Assembly (NCBI GenBank): GCA_009781425.1
Contig: WQYC01000015.1
Span: 1-55,710, forward strand
DNA: 55,710 nucleotides
From: Oscillospiraceae bacterium
GTDB lineage: Bacteria; Bacillota; Clostridia; Oscillospirales; Ruminococcaceae
Direction: 5' to 3'
Shown here: piece by piece, positions 21,948 through 24,990 of the stretch
Layout of the letters: every line of letters starts with the position of its first letter
Numbering within the stretch: position 1 is the stretch's first letter
Position numbers and translations under genes: made by a program
The notes under the pieces: model-generated
The model's input: only the letters and a program-made list of their open reading frames with translations
Told to the model about the DNA's origin: nothing
The model's database searches: none

Positions 21948-21999
21948 CCCCCCGCTTCAAGCGGGGGGTTCCTGCGCTCACGCGCAAAATTTGACAAAA
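21948..21999 (+). repeat. metK terminator and 51-base direct repeat, copy 1
   Basis: CCCCCCGC / GCGGGGGG hairpin, then a small GCGC-type hairpin and the TTGACA of locus B. The same order of bases recurs almost exactly at 22378-22429 before locus C, so the block including the -35 box has been duplicated. The first hairpin with TT can terminate metK. Confidence 0.85.
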
Positions 22000-22377: not shown

Positions 22378-22429
22378 CCCCCGCTTCAAGCGGGGGGTTC
22401 CTGCGCTCACGCGCAAAATTTGACAAAAA
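22378..22429 (+). repeat. 51-base direct repeat, copy 2, before locus C
   Basis: Near-identical to 21948-21999: CCCCCGC/GCGGGGGG hairpin, GCGC hairpin and the TTGACA box of the locus C promoter. Confidence 0.85.
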
Positions 22430-22671: not shown

Positions 22672-22716
22672 AATTTCATTATATCACATACATTCCAATT
22701 TGTCAAGCAAAAAAAG

Positions 22717-22737
22717 AAACCCCCGAAAGGGGATTTC
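22717..22737 (-). terminator. terminator of pilin gene A
   Basis: On the minus strand, a CCCC-TTTC-GGGG stem is followed by TTTCTTTTTTT, just beyond the pilin stop. Confidence 0.8.
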
Positions 22738-22760
22738 TTTAAACTGCTTTTGCAGAGATA

Positions 22761-23354
22761 TTATGTGGTTGATTTCGGAGCTGTACCAACGATTTCACGA
22801 GTTGCCGGTACTCTACCGTTAACGATTCCTGTAACGCCGTCTTGGTCAACAACAGGAACTGCCAGAGCAGCACCGCCGCCGCCGGTAGTGTCAGATACAT
22901 AAGCAACGGAGTTAGCACTGTTGCGGGAAATCCAAATTCTGTAGCCTGCATCGGGGAGTGTGTCGGGCATAGTATCATCTAAGTAAATTCTTAAATGGTC
23001 TGCCGCGTCAGTTGCACCTGATGCTGTCAGCAATGCTGTAGGAACAGTTGCGGGGTTGGTAGCTACAACGTGTACGCCTCTTGCAGTACCGCCGCCGCCG
23101 TCAACAGTGATTTCTAATCCTGCGGGGTCATCATATCCGCCGTTGTTCTGAGCGAGTTCGGACAGATAGTATGTGATTTGGTTTCTCATGCTGGACGCCG
23201 CGCTGTCTGCGCTGGAGATACGAGCGTTGCCGAGGAAGTTCGCCATCAGCGGAATAAGTATAGCCGCGAGAACGCCGATAATAGCGATAACGACCATGAG
23301 TTCAACGAGGGTAAAGCCTTTTTTTGCTTTTAAAGCTTGAAGTTTACGAATCAT
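22761..23354 (-). CDS. type IV pilin-like protein A (promoter-linked copy of an inverted pair)
   Basis: A 197-residue prepilin. Residues 1-13 form a short basic leader ending at the prepilin peptidase site KKG/FTLVELMVVIAIIGVLAA, with Glu5 of the mature protein present. The N-terminal helix continues to about residue 55; the rest is a Gly/Ala/Thr-rich globular domain with no visible cysteines. Pilin B at 24341 has an almost identical first 50 residues and a different globular domain. The gene has AAGGAGG before ATG 23354, a leader hairpin, and the only strong promoter of the pair. No assembly genes lie nearby, so the pilus ATPase and peptidase must be encoded elsewhere. Confidence 0.92.
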   Translation of the reverse strand: MIRKLQALKAKKGFTLVELMVVIAIIGVLAAILIPLMANFLGNARISSADSAASSMRNQITYYLSELAQNNGGYDDPAGLEITVDGGGGTARGVHVVATNPATVPTALLTASGATDAADHLRIYLDDTMPDTLPDAGYRIWISRNSANSVAYVSDTTGGGGAALAVPVVDQDGVTGIVNGRVPATREIVGTAPKSTT

Positions 23355-23376
23355 AATAGGGTAATCCTCCTTAAAA

Positions 23377-23399
23377 ATATGTCGGTTTTCAGCCGGATT
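23377..23399 (-). promoter_or_regulatory. leader hairpin of pilin gene A
   Basis: GCCGGATT and AATCCGGC form an 8-bp stem with a 5-base loop, followed by TGAAAACCGACAT and then the ribosome binding site. The pilin B leader has the same hairpin with compensating base changes and the same flank, so the structure, not only the sequence, seems conserved. Confidence 0.6.
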
Positions 23400-23420
23400 C
23401 TTTTAATCCGGCGTCTTACA

Positions 23421-23438
23421 CGAGCTTGCAAATACTAT
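23421..23438 (-). repeat. 18-bp inverted repeat, left copy (candidate crossover site)
   Basis: Reads ATAGTATTTGCAAGCTCG on the minus strand and is identical to 24259-24276 on the plus strand. Its first two bases are the end of the TATAAT of the pilin A promoter, so the promoter lies immediately inside the segment bounded by the two copies. Confidence 0.7.
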
Positions 23439-23465
23439 TATATATGAAAGCTATCACAAAGTCAA
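23437..23465 (-). promoter_or_regulatory. SigA promoter driving pilin A
   Basis: On the minus strand, TTGACT (23460-23465) and TATAAT (23437-23442) are 17 bp apart. The corresponding position upstream of pilin B lacks the -10 and -35 boxes although the sequence from ATAGT onwards is the same. Confidence 0.8.
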
Positions 23466-23585
23466 TACTTTTTTCATAAAACTTTCACATAAGCTGACAA
23501 TTCGTTACTAACTTACTAATATATGGTATTTGTTTTGTGCAAATTGGCTATATTGCCGTGCCGTTTGTGACGGTTGGGTGAAGAG

Positions 23586-23626
23586 TTGGAGATGAGACCT
23601 ATCTTGATTTATAATTAAAAATCAAG
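23586..23626 (+). promoter_or_regulatory. weak promoter and hairpin before the recombinase gene
   Basis: TTGGAG (23586-23591) and TATAAT (23610-23615) are 18 bp apart. CTTGATTT (23603-23610) and AAATCAAG (23619-23626) form a hairpin just before the AGGAGG ribosome binding site, which may restrain recombinase translation. Confidence 0.45.
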
Positions 23627-23639
23627 GAGGATTTTTTAA

Positions 23640-24242
23640 ATGGATTATTTTTACATGCGTGTGTCGAAGCGTGAGCAATGTGAGGACAGACAGCTGCTGG
23701 AAGCGCGGAAGCTGCAAATCCCGCCGGAGCAGATTTACACCGACAAAAAATCAGGCAAAAATTTTGAGCGCGACGGATATGAGTCGCTTTTGCGTGTTCT
23801 GCGGAAAAACGATGTGATTTATATTAAAAGCATAGACAGGCTCGGGCGCAATTACTTAGAAATTCAAAATCAATGGCGGATATTAACCAAGGAAATGGGG
23901 GTAGATATAGCTGTCATTGATATGCCGTTGTTAGACACGCGCCTGAACAAAGACCTTATGGGGACATTTATCGCCGATTTGGTGTTGCAAATCCTTTCGT
24001 TTGTCAGCCAAAGCGAACGCGATATGCTCCGTTCGCGAGTCATTGACGGCTTGACCGCCGCGCGCGAGCGGGGCGTTCGCTTCGGGCGTCCTGTTATCGC
24101 CGCGCCCGCCAACTTCGGACGCTTAGTTCATAAATGGGAAAACGGAAGCCTGCACTTTAATGATGCATTAGCCAAAAGCGGACTGACAAAAGCTACGTTT
24201 TATCGACGTTTACGAGAATATCGCGAAGCGCAGAAGCAGTGA
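23640..24242 (+). CDS. small serine recombinase (invertase/resolvase type)
   Basis: A 200-residue serine recombinase. The catalytic Ser lies in YMRVSKREQ (residue 9), with the Arg-containing active-site motif KSIDRLGRNYLEI and the helix-E region FIADLVLQILSFVSQSERDML. The C-terminal 50 residues include GRPVIAAP and a helix-turn-helix (NDALAKSGLTKATFYRRL) that would read the crossover sites. The size matches Hin/Gin invertases and Tn3-type resolvases, not large serine integrases. It lies between two inverted pilin genes and inside an 18-bp inverted repeat pair; its stop is 16 bases from the right copy. The most likely job is to invert this segment. Reading into pilin B from this gene is possible, since no terminator separates them. 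Confidence 0.88.
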   Translation: MDYFYMRVSKREQCEDRQLLEARKLQIPPEQIYTDKKSGKNFERDGYESLLRVLRKNDVIYIKSIDRLGRNYLEIQNQWRILTKEMGVDIAVIDMPLLDTRLNKDLMGTFIADLVLQILSFVSQSERDMLRSRVIDGLTAARERGVRFGRPVIAAPANFGRLVHKWENGSLHFNDALAKSGLTKATFYRRLREYREAQKQ

Positions 24243-24258
24243 GTTACTATCAAAAAGC

Positions 24259-24276
24259 ATAGTATTTGCAAGCTCG
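24259..24276 (+). repeat. 18-bp inverted repeat, right copy (candidate crossover site)
   Basis: Identical, in inverted orientation, to 23421-23438. The two bound an 856-bp segment containing the pilin A promoter and the recombinase gene. Confidence 0.7.
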
Positions 24277-24282
24277 GGAAAG

Positions 24283-24317
24283 ATGTCGGGTTAGAGTATC
24301 CGACTGAAAACCGACAT
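24283..24317 (+). promoter_or_regulatory. leader hairpin of pilin gene B
   Basis: GTCGGGT pairs with ATCCGAC, the counterpart of the pilin A hairpin. An alternative stem is possible between ATGTCGG (24283-24289) and CCGACAT (24311-24317), which would compete with it. Confidence 0.5.
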
Positions 24318-24340
24318 AATTTTAAGGAGGAAACCCTATT

Positions 24341-24940
24341 ATGATTCGTAAACTTCAAGCTTTAAAAGCAAAAAAAGGCTTTACCCTTGTTGAGCTTATG
24401 GTCGTTATCGCGATTATCGGCGTATTAGCAGCCATACTTATTCCGCTGATGGCGAACTTCCTCGGCAACGCTCGTATCTCCAGCGCAAACAGCGCAGCGG
24501 CAAGCATGAGAAATCAAGTTACCTATTGGCTCTCTGAGCTTTCGCAAATGAACACCGGTTATGAAGGTGCTCCCTCAGAGATTCTAATTGAAGCATCCAC
24601 CGGAAGAGGTAGACATGATGTTTCCAACTTACCGACAATAGCTCCACCTCCGAGTGGCTGGCAGAACGTAGACACTGACGGAACAACAGCAGCAACCACC
24701 GAACAAGAAGACTTGGAATATTTCTTAAATGAATCCATGCCCGATACAGTTCAAGGTTCAGGTTATAAAGTCGTTATCGCTCGCGGCAGTGCTACTCTTA
24801 CTATTTACTGCCCTGTCGGTGACTTTGACGGCGTAGACTTCGATGGAAACCTTCTTTCGATTGATTCCGGTACTTTAACCGCTCGCGGCAGAGGTGCAAA
24901 CCGTAACATCATAGGCACATCACCGGAAGCTTTGCCGTAA
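24341..24940 (+). CDS. type IV pilin-like protein B (apparently promoterless copy)
   Basis: A 199-residue prepilin with the same leader and N-terminal helix as pilin A (KKG/FTLVELMVVIAIIG) and a different C-terminal domain (RGRHDVSNLPTIAPPPSGW onwards). The first 55 bases around the start and a later 51-base block are identical at DNA level to pilin A; the stretch between carries only synonymous changes. The 18-bp repeat lies upstream but no TATAAT/TTGACA pair, so it should be silent or weakly read through from the recombinase gene in this orientation. A good terminator follows. Confidence 0.92.
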   Translation: MIRKLQALKAKKGFTLVELMVVIAIIGVLAAILIPLMANFLGNARISSANSAAASMRNQVTYWLSELSQMNTGYEGAPSEILIEASTGRGRHDVSNLPTIAPPPSGWQNVDTDGTTAATTEQEDLEYFLNESMPDTVQGSGYKVVIARGSATLTIYCPVGDFDGVDFDGNLLSIDSGTLTARGRGANRNIIGTSPEALP

Positions 24941-24966
24941 ACCAATATTTAAGAAAAGATTTAAAG

Positions 24967-24990
24967 ACCCCCCGAAGGGGGGTTCTTTTT
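24967..24990 (+). terminator. terminator of pilin gene B
   Basis: ACCCCCC-GAA-GGGGGGT hairpin followed by TCTTTTT. Confidence 0.88.

Follow-up and report, generated by a model that had tools for sequence, protein, structure and literature searches.

In the Hin system the invertible segment also holds a promoter, and the hix site is a 26-bp sequence with a 2-bp core; in Moraxella it is the pilin sequence itself that is inverted. Published accounts describe the Hin flagellar switch of Salmonella as the work of a small serine recombinase whose gene lies in the short segment that it inverts (PMC11868660, PMC5903667), Moraxella Piv as selecting between two type IV pilins by inversion (PMC11868660, PMC11208160), and slpA/slpB of Lactobacillus acidophilus as two surface-layer (S-layer) genes, one of them silent without a promoter, that are exchanged by inversion (Boot et al. 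1996; PMC6015585). Here we analyse a 55,710-nucleotide stretch of DNA from an Oscillospiraceae bacterium (contig WQYC01000015.1, the whole of it called the window below), in which two divergent type IV pilin genes, A and B, flank the gene of a small serine recombinase. We find it reasonably probable that this locus is an invertible promoter switch between the two pilins. The recombinase would cut at two 2-bp cores (23437-23438 and 24259-24260) and invert the 820-bp segment that carries its own gene and the one strong promoter. In the present orientation this promoter would drive pilin A; inversion would bring it in front of pilin B and leave pilin A without one. The promoter would remain intact, because its -10 box spans the core, and both sides have the two bases with which the box ends. 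A cell would make one of two pili at a time, with a common N-terminus and a different remainder.

The arrangement of genes given in an earlier note on this DNA stands. The two divergent pilin genes and the recombinase gene between them are intact open reading frames (ORFs), both pilins have the N-terminal methylation motif and the middle gene encodes a Resolvase domain (PF00239). The pilins have, as had been proposed, a common 5′ part and different C-terminal domains: their first 49 residues are identical and the rest has diverged. Besides the motif, the assembly machinery expected for type IV pilins is present in the source genome, where T2SSF, PilM and two T2SSE ATPases lie together on contig C41. 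The note had also described a sole strong promoter, facing pilin A, and none at the equivalent place for pilin B. This is confirmed by consensus match (11 of 12 bases), the scan listing no promoter at the corresponding position upstream of pilin B in the present orientation; by the same kind of match, the segment holds a promoter pointing at one flanking gene, as an invertible switch should. A similar promoter precedes the pilins of three relatives in the genus (genomes G053, G056 and G045; loci L033, L034 and L035), so the A side looks ancestral.

Because its sequence alone cannot separate a resolvase from an invertase, we examined the surroundings of relatives of the recombinase. These were drawn from genome contigs (49 loci), the genus (71 genomes) and the bacterial family (396 genomes), and amounted to 156 distinct recombinase loci with the window included; a match was present in 13 of the 71 genus genomes (at 1e-30) and in 79 of the 396 family genomes (at 1e-55). 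Many relatives have, right after the stop codon, a 26-bp dyad composed of two 12-bp halves and a 2-bp core, for example ctatcaaaaagt-GT-actttttgatag; L077 and L066 are among those in which both sites of the pair are near-perfect. Site pairs were counted in 69 loci, a set that omits from 75 the window itself and five entries whose recombinase DNA duplicates that of another. The matrix used is blind to the core, so that cores played no part in choosing the pairs. A first site was found in 43 of the 69 loci and a second one too, 103-276 bp further downstream, in 31; among the remaining loci two had too little downstream sequence and the others fell below a threshold. In all 31 passing pairs the two cores are reverse complements of each other, against a chance of 1/16 for each pair, the loci being related and not all independent. 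Pairs were also sought without a matrix in 137 of the 156 loci, the window included, after dropping those with less than 45% identity or fewer than 250 searchable bases. This search, in which the cores enter the score, gave pairs above the best of 137 shuffles in 55 loci, the window being among the 82 misses. None of 129 control stretches taken upstream gave such a pair.

A promoter match of at least 10/12 is present in 20 of the 31 segments that the matrix-chosen pairs enclose, against 9% of shuffles, and one of at least 11/12 in 9 of the 31, against 1%. Behind the second site an ORF of at least 90 codons follows in 47 of the 55 loci, and in 33 of these 47 it has a hydrophobic stretch near its N-terminus, by a crude test without background. 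We also compared the orientation of segments between relatives, in alignments made without the crossover sites. The segments of L081 and L088 score 39 in opposite orientation, against 22 for the best of 2000 shuffles and 9 in the same orientation, which by alignment is good evidence that they would be inverted relative to each other. For L003, from the source genome, and L138, from the same genus, the score in opposite orientation is 25 against 24 for the best shuffle (33 against 34 with another scoring; P 0.001), evidence for an opposite orientation that would count as marginal. Both pairs were chosen after a first look and then tested alone. The segments of L086 and L088 have the same orientation, and L081 against L086 gives P values of 0.04 and 0.12 for the opposite one.

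One relative offers a parallel to the layout of the window. At L083 (WRLW01000005.1, by its title a contig of an Oscillospiraceae metagenome-assembled genome) an exact 103-bp inverted repeat flanks a recombinase of the family. At its inner end the repeat has a near-perfect 26-bp site, and on both sides it runs on to where a signal-peptide-like protein begins; the contig end truncates the left copy. A promoter-like sequence, read by eye, lies just inside the left site and points leftward. L083 resembles the window, with another surface protein, and the proposed partner site of the window lies, as at L083, upstream of the recombinase. Among the 156 loci such repeats surround the recombinase only in these two, with weaker repeats in L107, L179, L214 and L219; a long inverted repeat around the recombinase of L169 was dropped as repeated non-coding DNA, judged by eye.

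The window was then scanned with a matrix built from the sites of 26 relatives, the window left out (one training site, from L093, looks spurious with a score of -13 and was kept in). The top-scoring position in the 55.7 kb is 24247-24272 (site B), and it occupies the usual place of the family, where the site starts within about 10 nt of the stop codon. The score of its inner half is reached by 5 in 100,000 12-mers and that of its outer half by 1.2%. The recombinase gene therefore has beside it a 26-bp dyad with a 2-bp core of the kind expected for Hin/Gin-type enzymes, with one degenerate half. The exact identity between the A and B sides stops at the 2-bp core (23437-23438 and 24259-24260), whose position is independent of the repeat between the two sides because it was derived from the sites of the relatives, and the A-side core coincides with the final two bases of the -10 box of the pilin A promoter. 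Of the 12 bases of the inner half, 7 are the same in sites A and B (P about 0.02, from base composition).

The earlier note had drawn the inverting segment between the copies of an 18-bp inverted repeat (23421-23438 and 24259-24276). Its promoter does sit just inside the left end of the segment, but the likely boundary is given by the cores of the 26-mers, 820 bp apart, and not by the repeat (856 bp). The repeat is exact, as stated; as support for inversion, for which it was the main evidence, it is not significant alone. It belongs to an inverted similarity of 308 bp at 85.7% identity that spans from the coding interior of the pilins to the -10 box of pilin A, and an exact run of at least 18 bases arises in 55% of simulations (86% identity, 82 positions). 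Since a duplication of this kind would contain such a run in about one case of two, the 18-bp repeat was set aside as evidence and rejected as the sign of a recombination site.

We therefore regard the window recombinase as a probable invertase and its locus as a probable promoter switch. For the on/off choice between pilins put forward in the earlier note, the inverted site pairs of the family, the position of site B and the promoter at the core are favourable, but the A-side site is weak and no flipped pilin locus turned up in the sequences searched. We infer from sequence the use of this A-side site, present-day inversion and the resulting change of pilin. On balance, and by a small measure only, we also favour a broader proposal: the recombinase would belong to a numerous family of flip modules, each self-contained in having inverted 26-bp sites of its own directly after the gene, and mostly switching on and off the promoter of a gene for the surface or for motility. 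Such modules would occur in many genomes of the bacterial family, in other Clostridia and in archaeal-titled contigs, and that of the window would have been rebuilt to choose between two type IV pilins.

Table 1. Positions of the genes, sites and other elements of the pilin locus in the window.
Feature	Position	Strand	Remarks
Terminator-like hairpin 3′ of pilin A	22713-22740	-	
Pilin A	22761-23354	-	197-amino-acid type IV prepilin; intact ORF; PF07963 N_methyl, E=3.5e-09; promoter-served in the present orientation
Inverted duplication, left arm	23131-23438		5′ part of pilin A and its 5′ untranslated region (UTR); 85.7% identical to right arm
Pilin A 5′UTR	23355-23430	-	predicted 8-bp hairpin
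Proposed A-side crossover site	23425-23450		core AT at 23437-23438; placed by the end of A/B identity
Promoter TTGACT-17-TATAAT toward pilin A	23465-23437	-	11/12 consensus bases; last two bases are the proposed core
Promoter-like site TGGAGA-17-TATAAT upstream of recombinase	23587-23615	+	10/12, by consensus match alone
Serine recombinase	23640-24242	+	200 amino acids; intact ORF; catalytic domain and C-terminal helices
B-side crossover site ctatcaaaaagc-AT-agtatttgcaag	24247-24272	+	4 nt past recombinase stop; inner half canonical, outer half degenerate
Inverted duplication, right arm	24259-24564		pilin B 5′UTR and 5′ part
Pilin B	24341-24940	+	199-amino-acid type IV prepilin; intact ORF; PF07963, E=3.6e-09
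Terminator-like hairpin 3′ of pilin B	24966-24984	+	

Other loci of the family deserve mention in their own right. In the source genome, L023 (G000:C51, 96-6492) has a family recombinase and an inverted site pair with cores AG/CT, 127 bp apart, directly preceding a 1852-amino-acid protein with MACPF and immunoglobulin-like domains; it is probably a second invertible promoter of this genome. CsrA-like proteins stand behind the module in L080, L161, L163, L180 and L202 and a flagellar hook-like protein in L077, names being read from sequence, and motility may be switched by the module too. The recombinase is also present on contigs whose titles name the archaeon Candidatus Bathycorpusculum (L081, L086, L088 and L090), and three of the four have inverted site pairs. 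In 10 of the 69 non-duplicate loci (L002, L004, L005, L062, L079, L081, L090, L098, L100 and L139) the sequence ends at most 200 bp from the recombinase, a count made with no background comparison; ends so placed are as expected if recombinase sites break assembly. Against viral contigs, neither the recombinase query nor a perfect consensus site gave a match, and the 18-mer gave one, on a contig without a nearby pilin ORF. Within the window, a 51-bp sequence with a terminator-like palindrome is exactly repeated in direct orientation (21949-21999 and 22378-22428) between metK and pilin A.

Several observations weigh against a working switch, and the alternatives to it draw on them. The proposed A-side site has a matrix score of -6.6, rank 343 in the window, and its inner half is equalled or beaten by 9.4% of the 12-mers there; the half nearest pilin A is common to both sites, and it is this outer half that is degenerate. 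The window has no second inverted site of at least 9 bits at the downstream distance usual in the family (103-276 bp), and 12 more relatives have a first site but no passing second one. The AT core is its own reverse complement, so that inversion would not be forced and deletion could occur equally well; family pairs with AT cores do occur at other loci. The L083 parallel is imperfect, as the downstream site there lies inside the recombinase reading frame, unlike that of the window. The fetched flanks (1.5-5 kb or less) of the other 155 loci in the family contained no pilin motif. When 56 segments, without their sites, were blasted all against all, 13 pairs in the same orientation and one short match in the opposite one were listed, and neither of the two flipped pairs was among them. 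The comparison with related genomes that had been proposed as a check gave two pairs of relatives, the one clear and the other marginal, whose segments are oppositely oriented, but no flipped form of the pilin locus in the sequences searched. Finally, the scan listed no terminator-like hairpin in the interval from the recombinase to pilin B; read-through is therefore possible, and pilin B may be transcribed in this way from the recombinase gene.

Much of this would suit a relic, left when the recombinase linked its site with a pseudo-site in the promoter of a copied pilin gene; pilin B would have been cut off from its promoter and the switching ended, with B now silent or weakly read from the recombinase promoter. 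Site B does look hybrid, with a canonical inner half and a pilin-derived outer half, and the poor site A, the lack of a second site at the usual distance, the pilin-free fetched flanks of the 155 other loci and the failure to find a flipped form are all in keeping with such a history. However, pilin B is intact, retains its ribosome site and has a predicted hairpin in its 5′UTR, its 5′ part is still similar to that of A, and the recombinase keeps its catalytic residues. The hairpin of B is predicted at 7 bp, in a sequence partly unlike that of A, and is of modest significance (z -2.34, 5 of 200 shuffles folding as well); it is less so in A (z -1.58, 11 of 200) and not at all in L033. Searched in the 71 genus genomes, the untranslated region of pilin B returned only the two copies of the window itself and short matches. 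We consider a relic an unlikely explanation.

The inverted duplication bears on a second alternative. Its arms contain exact runs of 55 and 54 bp, and over codons 1-60 the synonymous divergence (dS) between pilins A and B is 0.36, against 0.68-1.06 for either of them with the pilins of G026, G012 or G053; past these codons A and B have diverged to the between-species level. Close 5′ ends with a diverged remainder would fit a history in which the recombinase, or homologous recombination, exchanged these ends. On the unfavourable side for the switch, the pilins of G026 and G012 are likewise close over codons 1-60 (dS 0.47). RecA-type homologous recombination between the 308-bp repeats could itself invert the segment, with the recombinase as a bystander and the promoter still moving from A to B. 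The 86% identity of the arms, their exact runs and the similar 5′ ends agree with this, as does the existence in G021 of a pilin pair with 123 identical bases and no match to the window recombinase at 1e-30. It leaves unexplained, though, why exact identity stops at the core of a site whose position other loci predict, and why the recombinase has a site of its own at +4, and we consider it improbable.

In the genus, the two pilins of G021 lie where two contigs end inside them (L131 start and L132 end; C13 and C5), and in G012 and G026 the start codon of a pilin marks the end of a contig. The ends in G012 and G026 are suggestive of inversion, but the collapse of a second pilin copy accounts for them equally well; the ends in the three genomes suggest duplicated pilin 5′ ends in the genus, not inversion of them. 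On the G012 contig (L124, G012:C97) the genes found to the right of pilin B are conserved (phosphoesterase, cystathionine gamma-synthase, DacA and RlmH, named from sequence), with the pilin at the opposite end of the gene block and the contig ending at its start codon. Synteny through the position of metK in relatives was uninformative.

The identity of the recombinase also bears on the switch. The profile search meant to place it among the invertases matched PF00239 only (E 1.6e-22), and its sequence is closer to Sin and gamma-delta than to Gin: the nearest solved structures are Sin (86 bits) and gamma-delta (60), followed by Gin (42-43). In a fold search with its predicted model (mean predicted local distance difference test score, pLDDT, 79.6; predicted template modelling score, pTM, 0.53; residues 108-123 mostly below 50 in pLDDT) a gamma-delta/Hin chimaera, gamma-delta and Sin all came above Gin. 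The catalytic residues R7, D66, R67 and R70 are invariant and S9 nearly so in a 20-sequence alignment, and all five are kept in the window recombinase. Taken by itself the protein would bear the label of a resolvase as readily as that of an invertase; we would liken it to the Hin/Gin clade in its way of working and do not assign it there. Proteins about 47% identical to it are common on plasmids, where they are annotated merely as "recombinase family protein", and the source genome has seven further matches (E <= 1.2e-14), some adjoining mobility-like genes as read from the ORFs. These matches, the plasmid relatives and the closeness to the Sin structure would fit an inverted pilin duplication with a chance insertion of a resolvase-type mobile gene and no regulation by inversion, but the inverted site pairs of the family, the opposite orientations between relatives and the L083 parallel all indicate an invertase family and make this explanation very improbable.

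If the locus is indeed an invertible promoter switch, it would represent a serine-recombinase switch for type IV pili and would belong to a recombinase family in which many genes have recognisable crossover sites next to them. In genomes available just as assemblies it could then be predicted which surface, motility and pilus genes are phase-variable, and existing reads could serve as a check. In Campylobacter fetus one promoter lies between divergent sapA S-layer genes with common 5′ ends, much as the promoter of the window lies between divergent surface-protein genes with common 5′ ends; in contrast to the window, the segment there is larger, its inversion is largely RecA-dependent and the products are S-layer proteins. 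Like Hin, the locus has a recombinase gene and a promoter inside a short segment and a 26-bp site with a 2-bp core, but the promoter would serve either of two flanking pilins and the recombinase sequence is nearer to Sin and gamma-delta than to Gin. Two surface-protein genes, one of them without a promoter, are found here as in slpA/slpB; there, however, a 6-kb segment carries the structural S-layer genes, whereas in the window the promoter would move and the pilin genes would stay. The earlier note was right that Moraxella inversion relies on a different type of recombinase: Piv belongs to the Piv/MooV family and is not a serine recombinase, while the window recombinase matches PF00239 only.

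Invertible segments beside surface genes are also described for the serine recombinase Mpi of Bacteroides and the tyrosine enzyme RecV of Clostridioides difficile (PMC5903667). RecV differs from the window recombinase by its class; Mpi is one master enzyme with many scattered sites, whereas the sites of the present family adjoin each recombinase. The openly licensed literature searched (including PMC11892184 and PMC6176008), in the portions available and with subscription papers mostly outside it, held no serine-recombinase pilin switch and no account of this site family. In its mechanism the locus seems near to Hin and Lactobacillus slp and in its choice of pilin near to Moraxella Piv, and this combination seems new.

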